Origin: Tetrahymena elliotti 4EA
Taxonomy: Eukaryota; Ciliophora; Oligohymenophorea; Hymenostomatida; Tetrahymenidae
Length of the DNA stretch: 64,000 nt
NCBI GenBank assembly: GCA_000231825.2
Contig: JH720315.1
Coordinates: 729,497-793,496, forward strand
Direction of reading: 5' to 3'
Shown here: positions 1-53,800 of the stretch, piece after piece
Layout of the letters: every line of letters begins with the position of its first letter
Numbering within the stretch: the stretch's first letter is position 1
Notes under the pieces: model-generated
Databases searched by the model: none
Told to the model about the DNA's origin: nothing
Seen by the model: only the letters and a program-made list of their open reading frames with translations
Position numbers and translations under genes: made by a program

Positions 1-300
1 TGCTTGAAAGATTTTACACTTAAACAAATGTGTTCAATTTCTTTTTATATTTAAAATAGGTTGTAAGAAATATGCTTGAAAGATTTTACACTTAAACAAA
101 TGTCCTCAATTTCTTTTTATATATAAAATAGCAAGTAAGAAATATGCATGAAATATTTTACACTTAAACAAATGTGCTCAATTTCTTTGTCTATATAAAA
201 TAGGATGTAAGAAATATGCTTGAAAGATTTTACACTTTAACAAATGTGCTCAATTTCTTTTATCTTTAAAATAGCCAGTAAGAAATATGCTTAAACTATT
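1..300 (+). repeat. Tandem ~71-bp repeats, each an intron plus one codon
   Basis: Four to five near-identical units with periods of 72, 72, 71 and 71 bp open the window. Each runs from GTAAG through a conserved TTTTACACTTAAACAAATG core to AAAATAG. The three bases between units vary (GTT, CAA, GAT, CCA) while the flanks are conserved, so the unit amplified here is one intron plus its 3-nt spacer. Units further right keep only the end motifs. The array probably continues beyond the left edge. Confidence 0.85.
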
Positions 301-3300
301 TAAGGCTGAAAAATATTGAATTTATTTTTATAAAATAACAATTAGGATGTAAAAGTAAAAAAGGGTGAATAAAATAAGAAATATTTTAAATTAAATAAAG
401 ATAGTAGGAATTTCAAATAATATTAAGTTTAGATTGAAAAACTATTTTATGAAAATAATAAAACCAAGCAAGTAAATTCTTAGAAAAAAAAATTCATGTA
501 AAAACAAGCTAATTTATTAATAAAATAAAACCTAGCGAATAATTAATAAAAATAAATTAGAAATAATTTCAGTAAAAGTGGTTTCTATTTAACTTTAAAT
601 AGGAAGTAATATTTTATTCTTAGAGAAAATCATTTTGAAAGATTGATTAAAAAATGAATAATTTCATACTAATAAACTTAAAATAGCAAGTAGTAATTTA
701 ATCACTTAAAATGTGAGAAGACCTTCTTAAATACTAATTAATTAATAAAATTTAGAGAGTAAATTTTGAATTATTTAAAGCGATGGCAAATTAACTCAAT
801 ATTTATTTTAATAATTTAATAGACAGTAATTTTTGATTTGAGATGAAAAGTATGATTGAATATTTTTAAATACAAAATAGGATGTAAATTGTTTAAGCTA
901 TCAATAATGGTTAATCTTAAAATATAAAAATTGATATCATTAATATAGTGGGTATTTTATTAATTTTGGATAGCAAGCAAATATGAATTAATCTTCTAAA
1001 TATTTTTATTTAATACAGAAGGTAATTTAAGTTAACAATAAATTAGAAAATAATTTCATTTCAATTCTTTTCAATAAGGATGTAAGCTGAATTTGAGTAA
1101 TCTAAAAAATAGTTTACAAAATATATTTCAATATAGTTTGTAAATATTTGATAACAAGACACAAACCAATCAACAAAAATAAAAATTAAATAGATAGTAA
1201 AACATTTGATTAGTTAGAAAATAAAATGTGAATATTATTAATTTAATTAAAATAGCAAGTATTTAGTTTACAGCTTTACTGAAAAATAATTTAAAAAACC
1301 ATATTAAAATAAAATTAACAAATAGAGATTTCAAGTATAATTTCATTTATCAGTTTCCTCATCGCATAAACCAAACAAAATATTAGAGGAGAGTAAGATT
1401 TAAGAATAAGAAATAATGAATCTAAATATTAATTAAAAACCAAATTAGCTTGTAAATAAATCCAAAATTTAATTTTAATAGATTAAAAAATGTTTATTTG
1501 TAAAATAAATAGATAGTATAGCAAAATTCCCAATAATTTTGATTTACTAATGCTAAAATTTCAAACAGGAAGTAATTTATTTAATTACTTATTTTTTTTA
1601 AATTATGTTCAAACATCTAACTAACTTACTAATTCACTAGCATGTAAAATATCTTTGAATTTTTTTCAATAATGATCAAATCTATTAACACTGACTCATA
1701 ATAGGAAGTAAACTACTTATTATTAATTAAAAGATTTGTCCATAATGTACAAAAATAAATAATATATTAAAATAGAATGTAATTTTTAAAGAAGACAATC
1801 TTTAATGCAATATTCTCTTTAATACCATAAGGATGTAAACAATCAAAATTAGATTAAGATCAATTAAGTTTCATAATTTCTTTAGGGACAAGTAATTAAT
1901 AATTTTTGCTATTTTGCTACTTAAATGAGAAATAAAATAACTGATTATAAAGGAAGTATAAAGAATAATTGATGCTTTTTAATAGTCATTTATTGATATT
2001 AAATTAGTGGTTAACAGTAATAAAGTTTTAACTGAGTTAATTAAGTGATATATTTTGGAATTATTAAATAAGGCAAATGTATGCATTTATTTAAATTTCT
2101 CAAGCAAACTAATAGTTAATAAATCTTTATTTTTTCAATAGAGGGTAATTAATTAATATTAATTGAATATTTACAATATTTAGTATAATTTGCTTTATTT
2201 AAAATAAATAGAGTGTAATATTAATAATTTGATAATTCATTTTATTTGGAATTCTAAATATGATTGATCTTCTTCTAACAAACAAACAAATCTCATATAA
2301 ATAAAAGAGTGTAGATCTATTTAAGATTTAAAGTTTTACTTTTTCACAAATATTTTATTTTAAATAAATAAATAGCTCGTAAAAATATAAAAATCTTTTA
2401 AGAGAATTGTCCAATAGTTAATAAACAAAATTAAAATTAATGAATAGACTGTAAGGCTATTACTGAATTAGTGAAATTAAATTAATTAAAATCTAAAAAT
2501 AGAATGTAATCCCTTTTATACAAATTCAATTTTCAAAAAGTTGGCTTAATTTTAGTTTCTGATTGATTTATTTATTATTAAAAAAGGATGTAATCTTAAT
2601 TCTCCAGCAAGAAAGATATAAAAACATGAAATTAAATATATCTTTATAAAGAGGGTATTCTTTTTAAGTTATTTCAGATACATTTAAATTAGAGATTAAA
2701 TATATTCATTATTCATTCTTTAATCTTTCTTTACAGATAGTAATTTATTTTACAACTATTTTAACAACATTTCTTAACTAAATCTTTTTTATAATATAAA
2801 AGAAAGTAAAATTATTGAATAAAACTAAATTGATTATAAGGTGTAATTGTTAAAATAATCTAAACAGACAGTAAATAGATAAATAATTAGATTACTTCTC
2901 TTACTTGAATAATTCATTATCAAGTTTAATTTTTCAAAAAAAAAGATTGTAAATTGTTAATAATTAAAATTATTTATATTTATTTACTTTATTAATCAAA
3001 ATAGTTAGTAAAATTTTAAAATTTTGAAGATTAAAGCAAAAAAGGAAAATTTCAAATTAAAAATAGTTGGAAGTAATACTTTAAAATTATTTAAATGAAA
3101 AGATGATAAAATAATAATTAATATAATAAATAGCTCTAAGTAAAACACAAAAAGAATTTGAATCCCAATAAATTGAACAAACTTATACTATATAAATAGG
3201 CCTGAGTAATATATTTGAATATTTTTATGTCCAAAAGCCAATTAATAAACTTAAATATATAAAAAGCACATGGTAGTATTTTTTAAAATTTCACATCGAA

Positions 3301-4438
3301 GAAGAAATTCTAGATAAATAGATTCTAAATGTCTATTTTAAAAAATTGTAATACTTTTTGAGTTCAAAAATTAAAGGAATCTTTAACTAAAAATTAACTT
3401 AGAAATAAACAGGACAGAGTAATTATTCTTATCTTAGCAGCTCCATACTTAAAAATAAAATATTTACTTTTTATTAAAATAGGCTGTAATAAATTGAAAT
3501 ATTGTGTGAATATCAAATAAATACTAAAGGCTTATTTATTATTTAATTTAGAAAGTAAATTTTTATTCTGAAGATAATTCTATAATACTAAGAAAATAAA
3601 ATAACAAAAATAAAAATTATCTAAAAAGCTGGTAAGACTTTATCTATTTGTTAAAGATCATGAATGTGCTTTTTATTGTTTAATATTATAGCGAGTAAGA
3701 ATTTATCTCAATTGATTAAGAAGAACATAAAAATGACGTTAATTCAATAGATAGTAAATAAATTTTGAATAACTTTTAAAAACTAACACATTTATAAATA
3801 TCTTATAATTTAAAAAGCGAGTAGAAATTTTGAAAAGGACATTTATTCAACATAACTTTAAAAATAGGCTGTAAATAAAATTAAAATTATACTGATTTAA
3901 ATAGATCATAATTACTTTTAATACTAGATTGTAAGAAAAAATAAATTATTTATTGATGATTGATAGTCAGATTCAACAAGCTTAACTTCTAAAAATAGCT
4001 GGTATTTAACTATAATTTTTGCAGATAATAATCATTCTTAATTCTAGATTGTAAGAAATATTGATGATTGTTAGTTAGCCAGACTTAACAAATTTTATTT
4101 CTAAAAATAGTTGGTAATTAATTATTATATTTTTTGGAAATAATATTAATTAACTGGCTATCTTGATTCGATTTAATCAGTTTAAACAAGAAATTTGAAA
4201 ATAATAAGGCTAAATATTTCTATAAAAATTTAGAGTAAATAAACATAGAAATTTCAAACAGAATAATTTAACCATTTATTTACAAATTATAGAGAGTAAA
4301 TTCTAAACTATTAGATCGATTTTATATAATATAGAAATATTTATAATAAAAATATGCTAGATTGACTAAACTTGTTTGTACTCATAGATTCAAGAGACAA
4401 AGAAATAAGATGAGGAATCACACACAGACAGACAATGA
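1..4438 (+). CDS. Chain of 3n-nt micro-exons (putative gene, 5' partial)
   Basis: About 4.3 kb is built from units of roughly 50-95 bp that begin GTAA/GTAT/GTAG and end TAG, AAG or CAG, the local intron form. Between consecutive units lie only 3, 6 or 9 nt. I count 61 clean cases: 51 of 3 nt, eight of 6 nt (for example 1387-1392, 1886-1891, 3067-3072, 3134-3139) and two of 9 nt (1326-1334, 2008-2016). First examples: GTT 60-62, CAA 132-134, GAT 204-206, CCA 275-277. Joined in phase 0 they give an ordinary-looking residue mix and no TGA until GCCTGA at 3200-3205. A last exon at 4361-4438 is open in phase 0, rich in Gln/Glu/Lys/Asp, and ends in TGA. Irregular spots lie near 536, 3322 and 4181-4234, so a full reading frame is not established. 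It could be an extremely intron-rich gene, a decayed one, or a repeat that mimics splice sites. The product is unknown. Confidence 0.5.
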
Positions 4439-5265
4439 ATAGAATATTATTATTAAATAAAATATGTAAATAAGTTATATAATATGAAATATGTAATTGA
4501 TTTAATTATTATATGCTTTATATTTTGTAAACTTAATTTAACAATAATTTTTTTCTTTTTTTTTATTCTTTCCTATTTCGATTAAATATTTTTTTGCTGC
4601 TATCACCATAATTTTTTTTATGACCTATCACTTTATTTTTATCTAAAAAGTCAGTCAAAGAATTCTAAATTTTGAAAATTTTTTTTGTGATCAAAATTTT
4701 AAAAAATAGCAATTAATATTTTTAATATGGTGTTTAAAATTATAGAAAATAAATATGAGAAAAGTTCCAAAACTTTTGAATTAAAAATTAATTTATGAAT
4801 GAAAAAATTTTAATTTCATTATGAGAAATCACATGACAATTTTTTTAGAAGTAAAAGCAATAAAAGATTAATAGAGACTAGTTGAGATTATGAAGCTAAA
4901 AAATATGGAAATGTTTTGAGTTAGCAATAAAAACCAATAGACACTAGTTGAAATAAGATAATAATAGAAAGAGGTATTAATTGTTTTAATGATTTGCAAA
5001 TAAAAGGTAAAATTAATATTCAAAACTTTAAAGCCTTTTTGGAGTTTAAGAAGATGGCTTTAGAGTTTATTTAAATGATTTATCAAATAGCGATTAACAG
5101 CTTTTAAGATTAATTGAAATGATGTCATCATAAATAGGCTAATTATAATATAATTAGTGGAGTGTATTTAGTTTGGAATAAAGGGTTAATAATATTATTA
5201 GATTTCAATAAATAATATTATTAAAATAAAAAAATACCTTAATATTTGTTTTTGAGATTGATATC
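4439..5265. other. AT-rich spacer, no gene seen
   Basis: Poly-T and poly-A runs with no reading frame of coding character on either strand. It lies between the end of the micro-exon chain and the start of the LRR gene and presumably holds the LRR gene's promoter, but no motif can be named. Confidence 0.5.
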
Positions 5266-12279: not shown

Positions 12280-12846
12280 TTATATATTTTATTTATGCAA
12301 AACAACACTCAATAAATTTAACAAAAAGAAAAATATTATAAACTTTTTTTTTATACATTAATTCCTAAAAGAACTGATATCTTATTAACAAAAAGAAAAA
12401 TATTATAAACTTTTTTTTTATACATTAATTCCTAAAAGAACTGATATCTTATTGAAATTAAATAATCATTAAAAATACAAAAATAAAATAAAAACGTACT
12501 TTTTATTCGTTTAAGTATCCATTTACAAATTAAAAAAATTCTAATCAATTATTTACATATTAGGATATCTTCACAAAATACCAAATGAATATATAGTAAA
12601 TTTGATGACTTTGTTAGACTAAACAATAATTGATTTAATTAATATTATTTTAATTTATTTTTTCAAAAAAAAAAGGATCAAATCCATCCAGTAAATGTTT
12701 TTCCATAAATTAATCAGTAATTATTTAGAGAGCAAAATAAACATCTTAATTTTTGTAAATTTGAGTAATATGGAACTTTTTTTATAATGAATCAATTTAT
12801 GTTTTTATTTAGTAATTTAAAAAATTATTTATGTGTTTGTTTCATC
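12280..12846. repeat. Spacer with a perfect 67-bp tandem duplication
   Basis: 12320-12386 and 12387-12453 are the same 67 bp (starts AACAAAAAGAAAAATATTAT, ends GATATCTTATT). The identity implies a recent duplication, just upstream of the TMEM43-like gene's ATG. The rest of the spacer is AT-rich with nothing recognised. Confidence 0.85.
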
Positions 12847-26286: not shown

Positions 26287-26359
26287 CACCCACCGAGGGG
26301 CTCGAACCCTCGACCACCAGCTTAAAAGGCTGGCGCTCTACCGACTGAGCTAGACGGGT
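26287..26359 (-). tRNA. tRNA-Lys (anticodon UUU)
   Basis: The minus strand folds into a complete 73-nt cloverleaf without an intron. The acceptor ACCCGTC pairs with GGTGGGT (two G-U pairs), the D-arm is GCTCAGTCGGTAGAGC, the anticodon stem CCAGC/GCTGG holds the loop CTTTTAA, the T-arm is GAGGGTTCGAGCCCCTC, and the discriminator base is G. The anticodon UUU reads AAA/AAG lysine codons. CCA is not encoded, as usual in eukaryotes. A run of ten Ts follows on the minus strand as a Pol III terminator. It is the most GC-rich short segment nearby. Confidence 0.97.
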
Positions 26360-50887: not shown

Positions 50888-53800
50888 AAATAAATAATGA
50901 ATACTTAATTATTTTAAGTTAAAGTAAATATGAAATATTTTAAATAAAATCAAATTCAATTGAAGGTAGTTTAATGGATTAAGTAGCACTGTTTGACCCA
51001 ATATTTATGTCCTATGCCATAAGTAGTGGAGATACTAATAATCAAGATTAAATATTGTAAGTACTATTACTCTCGAAAGATTAAGTAATCGAAAAGAAAT
51101 ATATCCTTAATGATGAGAATGATTAAAGGTTAGATAAAATATGTAGCATGGAAGTTTCTGTTTTTGAATTCTATGATATTTCTTTTTCTATGTGTAGTAT
51201 TAAACCAGTATCTTATCCAGATTCACCTTAAGCTTCTATGATCCCTGTAACAGATTCTAGTTAAAACAATTATTTAAATATTATGCTAAGTGTTAATGAT
51301 TTAAGGTCTATTAACTTCTAAAGTACTCTTAACGGTCTTACTCAAGTCTATCCTGCAGAATAATCTGCTGTATATTGTATTTAAGACCTCTTTTCACTTT
51401 AAATATATGAAGACTCATTTACTAAATATACCGAACAATTAGTATAAATTAGAAACTTCAGTTTCAACTTCTCTAATAACTTATCATAAGTTAGGTTTTA
51501 CAACAATTCAAAGAGTGTAATTTTTGAAAATATTAATATTCAGAAATAAACTATTGATAATGTTACATTTGAGTTCACAGATATGGATCGTGTTATTCTT
51601 AACCAAATATATTTGAATAATTTCCAGAGAAGACCAAACTATAATTAAACTAGATCTGAATGGTTCTTCACTTTTTAAAATGTGAATGAAGTCAATATCT
51701 ATAATTTAATCTTAGATAATAGTAATCTACATAGCTTGAGTTTTAGTGGTTTAATATCAGCGATAAATGTGAATAATGTCATTATTTCAAACTTGACAAT
51801 ATAAAACTCAAGTATTGATTCTTTGATTGATATCTATAAAGTATAAAATTTTGAAATTCATAATTTATAGATAATCAATTGTTAATAATCATATACTGAT
51901 ATAAATAAATATATCCTAAGTATTACTGGAGTAGCAAGTTCAACTCTATCAAATATTTTGATTGCTTAAAATTCCAATTTATAATTTATTTATGCAACAA
52001 ACAAATTTAGAGAAAATGCAACATCATATTCTCTAGAGACTGATAACTTAGTTATTAACAATTTAAATATTTCATCAAACTTAATTTCTTCCTCAAATGG
52101 CTTATCATTAGTATCATTTTAAAGCTCTTTTTGTTCATTTAATAATGTTAATTACTTAAATAATTAAGGAAACTTTTTCTTAACATTATCTCAAAGCTTA
52201 TTGATATAAAATAGCATATTTTAACACAACTAATGCCTAAATGGAGGAGCTCTTGCTCTGAATTAATGCTAAAATTAAATATNNNNNNNNNNNNNNNNNN
52301 NNNNNNNNNNNNNNNNNNNNNNNNNNNNNNNNNNNNNNNNNNNNNNNNNNNNNNNNNNNNNNNNNNNNNNNNNNNNNNNNNNNNNNNNNNNTAATTAGTC
52401 AAAATTAATTAAAATTAAGCTTTGATAGGAGGAGAGATTAGGCTTTTTAACAGTCAACTAAATCTACCTTAATCACTTAACTTTAATTATACAAGCAATA
52501 TTTTTAACAACAATGCATAAATATATGGAAAAAATGTAGGAACTTTCTTACAAAATGTAATTTAAAGCTAAAAAACAGATAGTAGTAGTCTTTCTGATTC
52601 ATCAGATATACACTATTCTACAATATAAAATTAAGACATGAATGAATCTGATTCATAGAAATTTTAGCAAATACTTAAAGTATTTAATTTTAAAAGTGGT
52701 GGTATTCTAATTCTTTTTGTAAAATTAATTGATTCTGAAGGCACATATCTTAAATTCTCTTCATAAAAATTTCAATCTTAGCAATATCCTGAGCCTATTT
52801 AAGTTGAATTAAGTTAGATATCTTTCAAATTACAATCTTATACTAATAATTAAGATTTATTGATTAATGGGAGAAATATTATTACTTCCTCTGATTTTGA
52901 TGATTCTTAAAATCAATTTTTATTTTCATTAATTTAAATTTCAAGCATGCCAAACTAGACAACAAGTTTAGATATTATCCCTATCTACACACCTTCTAGC
53001 ATAAATATTCTTCCTCTTTATATAGAGCTAAATATGAGAATTTGTTATCCTGGTGAAGTTGTTAAACCAATTTCAAATAATATTTATATTTGCTATTCTT
53101 GTCCCTTGGGGTAGTATTCGTTAACAGATCCAACTAAAGATTAATTTTGGTATGAACATATATCAAAGACAGGCATATAAAATTCAAATGACTCATAATA
53201 GGCCTATTTATCTGAATGCTAAAAGTGCCCAGAATCAGCTTTTGAGTGTTAAAATAACACAATAGTTTTAAGAACAGGTTACTGGAGAAAGAACCATTTA
53301 TCTATTGATATTGTTTAATGTTCTCCATAATTTAATGCTTGTGATGAATAGGATATCACAAATAAATAGGTTTTTAAGAGGGTATATGGGGCCTCTTTGC
53401 TAAGTATGCGATATTGGAGGATAGTTATGGGAAGGTGAACGTTTTCACAATCAAAATCAGATTAAGTTAAATGTAATTTATGCAGTGAATAAAGTTTCTA
53501 AATTTTTTTATCATTTTTGTAGTAGTTATCTTTATTATTTATTTCACATTCAGCACAATACTTTTCTTTAATTCTTTTGTTCACTCCTGCTTATGCTATT
53601 ATATTAGAATGTTAAAAATCATAACTGTTTCCAGATTTTCAGTTTTAGATCAATCTAGTTTTTATATGAAGATATTAGTTAACTATATTTAGATCTCAGC
53701 CATTTTGTAATTCTAATAGGTAAGCTTTTTCCCCAGTTTCCTGTTTTCTGTAACAAATTATGTTTCTAATCCTAATTCATAATTGATTGTCGGTGTTAAT

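Follow-up and report, generated by a model that had tools for sequence, protein, structure and literature searches.

The window analyzed here is a stretch of 64,000 nucleotides (nt) of Tetrahymena elliotti 4EA (contig JH720315.1; C23:729497-793496 in our numbering of a genome of 89,954,799 bases and 134 contigs), which opens with a chain of predicted micro-exons, most of them 3 nt long. Positions 1-4438 very probably hold the 3' portion of a gene from a multigene family with ordinary spliceosomal introns, in which a small C-terminal domain would be encoded by almost one codon per exon. This reading builds on the pattern itself, on splice-site conservation, on the rule that exon lengths are multiples of three (3n), and on an open reading, a common stop and a shared motif, all of which are observed at the DNA level; from these we infer transcription, splicing, the order of splicing and the function of the protein. 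The DNA argues strongly for a real and very unusual gene family, and the micro-exon gene that had been proposed in an earlier note on this sequence is well supported as a prediction. Known 3-nt exons are rare and occur singly; here, if the locus is read rightly, dozens of them stand in a row. Intron-defined sequential splicing thereby becomes directly testable in a gene structure where splice-site changes would act as one-residue edits.

A chain of predicted 3-nt exons

The earlier note had counted 51 spacers of 3 nt, 8 of 6 nt and 2 of 9 nt, and exactly these numbers were obtained for the 61 junction-bounded spacers of window 1-4438 (forward strand) when the shortest 3n spacer was taken for each acceptor. 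With the strict pattern [ATC]AG-Nk-GTA[AGT] applied to window 1-4440, 51, 9 and 4 junctions were found at k=3, 6 and 9 (with a few overlaps), together with two at k=1, two at k=2, none at k=4, 5, 7 and 8, and one each at k=10 and k=11. The loose pattern AG-Nk-GTA (k=0-12) occurs 1.9-3.3 times per 4.44 kilobases (kb) in the rest of the window outside the chain, and 3n spacers are not in excess there. At the sequence level, the units have the form of exons of at most 30 nt flanked by GT..AG introns. The 46-95 nt that had been given for the introns holds for 57 of the 60 inter-exon intervals, the other three, at 472-602, 3273-3412 and 4114-4292, measuring 131, 140 and 179 nt, respectively. A correction to the earlier note concerns a unit CGA near 537, whose donor has changed from GT to AT in this copy.

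The same rule extends to the related chains, which are designated A (the window copy), A5, B, D, E and F. The strict pattern over all six gave 223, 35, 11 and 4 junctions at k=3, 6, 9 and 12 (273 in total) and 29 at eight other values of k up to 11, overlaps included. Spacers of other lengths at related loci, which the earlier note had named as evidence that would overturn its proposal, were looked for in A5, B, D, E and F of the same genome, and the 3n rule was found to hold there. At 258 junctions, where AG and GTA are demanded by the search pattern itself, A occupies base +4 with a frequency of 0.87 and T occupies base -3 with a frequency of 0.66. The 3-nt exons come in 46 different kinds. 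In a scan of 304 kb, of which 43.6 kb are N, linked junctions with 3n spacers reached at most 41 in a row on the forward strand and 7 on the reverse strand, and those with non-3n spacers at most 5. Reverse-strand chains near other N gaps were considered as further candidates and rejected, as on reading they resembled ordinary genes or chance.

Copies of the chain and conservation of splice sites

Chain A does not begin at position 1, as had been proposed; the micro-exon run is real, but its 5' end lies near -13102 (negative positions are upstream of the window), where exons GAA, TTT, AGG, ATT, CAT, GAT and CAA were found, and the part after about 4001 lies past the predicted stop. Between this 5' end and the window, and directly upstream of the latter, there is a run of 12,669 N (-12668..0) inside an array of 72-base-pair (bp) intron units. 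The chain is preceded by a coiled-coil open reading frame (ORF) of 508 codons from ATG with internal repeats (-14883..-13357, L003), which ends at a phase-2 GTAA donor at -13357; the ORF preceding chain D also ends at a phase-2 GTAA donor. Chain B is located upstream, at about -23300 to -18070, a fragment C at about -25900 to -25200, and chains D, E and F on contigs 24 and 40. The DNA of A, B, C, D, E, F and of pieces on C5 was read, other family places being known as matches alone, and C was seen but left out of the counts. Pieces of A, D and E, searched as DNA against the genome (G000), returned at least 3, 11, 3, 16, 32, 26 and 19 matches, self included. Among the matches listed, those of several hundred bases to chain E (E and F included) fell on C24 and C40 (three each), C33 (two), C82, C106 and C3, and further matches to its 3' region on C23 (three), C37, C54, C17, C50 and C35. 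The block of mostly 6-nt exons at 3067..3418 of A was found again in B, E and F.

Across 3777 aligned sites, the identity between A (window 301-4380) and B is 82.5%, corresponding to a divergence of about 17.5%. For 53 of 54 A exons, AG..GT is present at the same columns in B; this is a free count that excludes exons before 300 and the duplicated stretch 3960-4115, and an AG/GT identity of 51/51 was left unused as its rows had been picked for it, making it true by construction. In the control, two bases, three spaced bases and two bases within introns were fully kept in 1158 of 2710 cases (43%); of the 139 cases with an AG or GT of A in that geometry, 45 were kept. The exception among the 54 is exon GCT at 3483, where B is shorter by exactly three bases, leaving AG/GTAATG. 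Exon length changed by -3 once and by +6 once among the 53, and the gaps of the whole alignment number 40, 12 and 12 at lengths of 1, 2 and 0 modulo 3. For E and F, AG..GT was aligned in 35 of 39 junction pairs, the remaining four being, by inspection, two misalignments, one change from 6 to 9 nt and one donor lost in F; gap lengths here number 32, 13 and 5 at 1, 2 and 0 modulo 3. The splice sites thus appear to be under selection, and this, together with the earlier proposal that selection acts on reading frame, is borne out by the AG..GT pairs kept between A and B, as against the 43% within introns, and by exon length changes that are all 3n.

Reading frame and predicted protein

Among 38 matches to TCP1 chaperonins in the genome, internal TAA and TAG are frequent and TGA occurs twice, and TGA was therefore taken as the usable stop, with TAA and TAG read as sense. 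This genetic code, the base composition and the style of the genes all suit a ciliate. Exon strings were curated by hand and read in three registers with code 6. CGA in A, AAT in B, TAA in D and CTT in F were left out by judgement, as were candidates overlapping another junction or shortening an intron to less than about 40 nt; the TAA exon of D, by our own reading, adds no TGA if included. In the phase-2 reading (first base skipped, the +1 reading), no internal TGA is present in A, B, D, E or F, so that the joined exons keep an open reading, in B with one exon left out. The other two registers contain 1 and 3 in A, 2 and 3 in B, 2 and 0 in D, 6 and 3 in E, and 0 and 2 in F, the first figure of each pair being that for whole exons read as codons (reading 0), a candidate that was rejected. 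When exon order was shuffled, all five chains were free of TGA in 4 of 5000 shuffles, a number that rose to 283 for the set of A, D and E, with single-copy fractions of 0.22 (A), 0.018 (B), 1.0 (D), 0.25 (E) and 0.63 (F).

A common ending, TT[CT]/CTG/A with the TGA split over two exons, closes A, B, E and F. In all six pairs of these four chains, the phase-2 reading gave the top protein score (113, 73, 68, 66, 62 and 104), the other registers scoring 29-92. The columns I, G, V, S, G, Y, E, L and F are invariant in the aligned proteins, and the common motif comprises IG.VS...G and YELF; it survives between the A/B and E/F lineages.

Other ways of reading the DNA as coding were dismissed. The intron lengths of A are spread over the residues modulo 3 (23, 22 and 21), which does not suit intron bodies as the coding part; the unspliced region contains 18, 34 and 26 TGA in its three frames; and a tail ATTCAAG..TGA was dropped as coding end because the shared stop lies earlier.

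Several observations weigh against this interpretation. The exon lists are curated by hand, and the open reading of B requires the chosen skip of exon AAT near -19001, which was omitted because its donor is absent in A. Much of the weight of the shuffle test comes from B, since its single fraction is the lowest and it is open only without AAT; the test on A, D and E is weak, D adding nothing, as the mean TGA count of its shuffles is 0. For several pairs, shuffles were also outscored by the other registers, because the DNA itself is related, and the scores of D against A, B, E and F did not exceed those of shuffles in any register, so that its family membership would rest on its opening exons, its structure and one DNA match of 82%. 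Codon usage favours the phase-2 register in A and B, but not significantly relative to shuffles, and the training set consisted of window ORFs that are unverified as genes and gave no strong family match. Searches of Pfam, protein and PDB data revealed nothing convincing as a homologue, Pfam family or fold for the deduced domain, one of the empty answers carrying no weight by itself. Exons are no more conserved than introns: at matched base composition, 127 of 183 exon sites are identical between A and B where 142.5 were expected (P 0.004, exons less conserved), and 87 of 123 between E and F where 88.3 were expected (P 0.42, equal), so that purifying selection on residues is not visible between close copies. 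Strong positive selection on exons, suggested by a first comparison, was rejected, as at matched composition only A/B, and not E/F, stays less conserved. Finally, a protein search with the coil returned five matches, all on C23 (three in A and two in B), the coil is thus found only at C23, its joining to chain A is provisional, and the coil of B is frameshifted by our own reading.

Proposed splicing route and alternative explanations

In the proposed mechanism, the introns would be short, GT..AG and of phase 2, and a 3-nt exon would complete one codon with its first base and open the following codon with its other two. The earlier idea of about one codon per exon is retained, in that one motif and one stop emerge from A, B, E and F, with the correction that the introns would fall inside codons. 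Each intron of 46-95 nt would be recognized across the intron, which fits the intron lengths of A, near the ordinary Tetrahymena value of about 56 bp stated in the available part of PMC6564038. The introns would be removed one after another, the growing exon gaining three bases per step, and no spliceosome would need to occupy a lone 3-nt exon. It had been objected that two spliceosomes could hardly sit side by side and that a sequential route would be needed; the route is kept here, and the difficulty may be smaller than claimed, because introns of this length could be recognized across themselves and removed one by one.

As exons are 3n and in one phase, the loss of a splice site would remove one residue and leave the frame intact. 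Four candidate changes of this kind were noted: a donor lost in A (CGA), a donor lost in F (CTT), GCT missing in B and an exon-like AAT present only in B. Given 3n exons and phase-2 introns, any exon skip, splice-site mutation or recombination between near-identical introns would stay in frame, and we tentatively suggest, as a possibility well short of probable, that the codon serves as an exon cassette by which the family varies a protein domain one residue at a time, either by alternative skipping or by intron-to-intron recombination. If true, this format would yield proteins differing by whole residues.

It is unlikely that the chains are the remains of a former micro-exon gene family in which many copies, A or B included, are now pseudogenes. 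The frameshifted coil of B, the fragmentary nature of C, the donors lost in A and F and the divergence of exons at about intron rates would suit such decay, but despite a divergence of about 17.5% the splice sites of 53 of 54 aligned exons have been retained, the coil of A is open for its 508 codons, and the readings of E and F are open. A spliced gene that skips most of its 3-nt exons, the units being decoys or recursive splicing points by which a long intron is removed stepwise, is improbable. Pure recursive sites need no 3n spacer and would share no protein reading, and a single motif and a single stop emerge from A, B, E and F in phase 2; this has to be set against the facts that 3n length makes skipping harmless, that single 3-nt exons are generally hard to include, and that the zero-length unit AG/GTAATG in B is a recursive-type site.

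We regard it as highly improbable that the chain is a non-coding tandem repeat with splice-like unit ends that inherited its 3n spacing from a founder unit. Splice dinucleotides persist as intron bodies diverge, there are spacers of 6, 9 and 12 nt, exon indels are exclusively 3n, D, E and F follow the same spacer rule with other intron sequences, and a peptide motif is held in common, even though a real 72-bp array is present at 1-292 and intron bodies within arrays are alike. The spliced family with almost one codon per exon thus remains the preferred explanation.

Intron arrays and genomic setting

The coordinates of the chain are compiled in the table. In the array at 1..292, intron cores are 0.90-0.93 identical pairwise, whereas its exons GTT, CAA, GAT and CCA are unlike. 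Mean core identity in arrays is 83% in B, 86% in D and 91% in A (16, 11 and 3 units), and exon bases within the same arrays agree at 24%, 27% and 33%, which is about chance. Some exons of B recur in order (AGG, ATG or AAT, GTG or CTG, CGA or TCT, GTT), which by our reading indicates block duplication. Block duplication, intron-to-intron recombination or the insertion of introns may account for the likeness of intron bodies within an array, the codons between them differing. Besides the array of A, that of E (L042) and the C5 loci (L036, L038 and L039) contain runs of N, and arrays may therefore defeat assembly.

Features of the predicted micro-exon chain in the window
Feature	Position	Strand	Details
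Putative micro-exon chain, 3' part of copy A	1..4438	+	G000:C23:729497-733934
72-bp tandem array	1..292	+	4.1 copies; unit of a 68-69 nt intron and a 3-nt exon
Predicted 3-nt exons	60..1258	+	starts 60, 132, 204, 275, 346, 401, 469, 603, 687, 756, 823, 881, 949, 1019, 1079, 1137, 1194, 1256
Former exon CGA	537..539	+	donor AT in A, GT in B; predicted one-residue deletion
Predicted exon block	1326..2078	+	1326 (9 nt), 1387 (6), 1449, 1513, 1569, 1641, 1705, 1776, 1832 (3 each), 1886 (6), 1953 (3), 2008 (9), 2073 (6)
Predicted 3-nt exons	2142..3007	+	2142, 2212, 2308, 2376, 2448, 2503, 2587, 2652, 2737, 2803, 2868, 2946, 3005; with 2073-2078 and 3067-3072, predicted product QIGVVSLMIGQKQFYW
Predicted 6-nt exons	3067..3418	+	3067, 3134, 3200, 3267, 3413
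Predicted 3-nt exons	3483..4001	+	3483, 3552, 3629, 3692, 3751, 3818, 3868, 3928, 3999; predicted C-terminal NCEYELF
Predicted split stop TGA	3999..4048	+	last two bases of exon CTG (3999-4001) and first base of exon at 4048
Exon-like 3-nt units past the stop	4048..4295	+	4048, 4111, 4293; presumably 3' untranslated
Putative terminal exon and downstream region	4388..4560	+	exon start set by eye; matches of the downstream part to family members and elsewhere on many contigs

At L004 (-26400..-25200), fragment C stands directly after an ORF that by eye resembles a protein kinase, as if fused by duplication. A similar stretch, GCCTTGTAT..GAATCTGGGCCAG..CCCCCCTTTTT, is present at the break of chain D (L040) and at the edge of the C5 chain (L039) and is, by eye, possibly an inserted repeat. 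The neighbourhood also contains a cysteine-rich ORF (L008:3-2015) with a match to the Pfam family VSP (PF03302, E 1.2e-16). Elsewhere in the window, an exact 67-bp tandem duplication (12318-12453), a tRNA-Lys (TTT) on the reverse strand (26287-26359) and a run of 109 N (52283-52391) were noted.

Comparison with known systems

The whole family could easily escape standard annotation and RNA mapping. For deep RNA-seq of Tetrahymena thermophila, the available part of PMC3274533 describes the use of TopHat with microexon search, together with a requirement of at least 8 bp on each side of a junction. In the literature on micro-exons of ciliates or Tetrahymena, judged mainly by titles and abstract openings and with most subscription journals outside the search, no account of such genes was found. 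The sections available of the articles cited below likewise describe no runs of 3-nt exons for aphid bicycle genes, schistosome micro-exon genes (MEGs) or Tetrahymena leucine-rich repeat (LRR) genes.

Within ciliates, Tetrahymena LRR genes contain arrays of exons of exactly 90 bp, preceded by introns of which more than 98% are in phase 2 (PMC6564038, as far as its accessible text goes). They share with the present chains the tandem exon-intron units, the phase and a fast-evolving family, but the chain contains no 90-bp exon arrays and the searches gave no LRR match. Introners, in which the same intron family is inserted in many unrelated genes (PMC9860276, in its available part), resemble our arrays in that near-identical introns lie between unlike coding bases, and the insertion of introner-like copies is possible. 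Array-intron matches fall on many contigs, and the minority of places whose DNA was read were chains of the same kind.

Aphid bicycle genes encode a signal peptide and a cysteine-pair motif. According to the accessible text of PMC9168663, they possess about 17 exons on average, almost all internal exons being in phase 2, and form a fast-evolving large family, and a megacycle gene has more than 100 micro-exons for about 2000 residues, i.e., tens of bases per exon. Going by that text, the likeness to the present family lies in the many phase-2 micro-exons, the fast evolution, the large family size and a homology that is clearer in gene structure than in sequence, whereas most exons here are of 3 nt and the phylum is a different one. 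Schistosome MEGs consist of 10-20 exons, mostly of 15 bp (6-81 bp in the text and 3-81 in the abstract), with introns of 0.1-5 kb (PMC10526429, in the part available). They too have runs of short exons, mostly multiples of three, and evolve fast. The present chain, which within the window itself has about 60 exons (3 nt long in 51 of 61) and introns mostly of 46-95 nt, falls outside the MEG definition as given there. In so far as these sources could be compared, schistosome MEGs and aphid bicycle genes are the nearest known kinds, and the exons of the Tetrahymena chains are far shorter than those of either.

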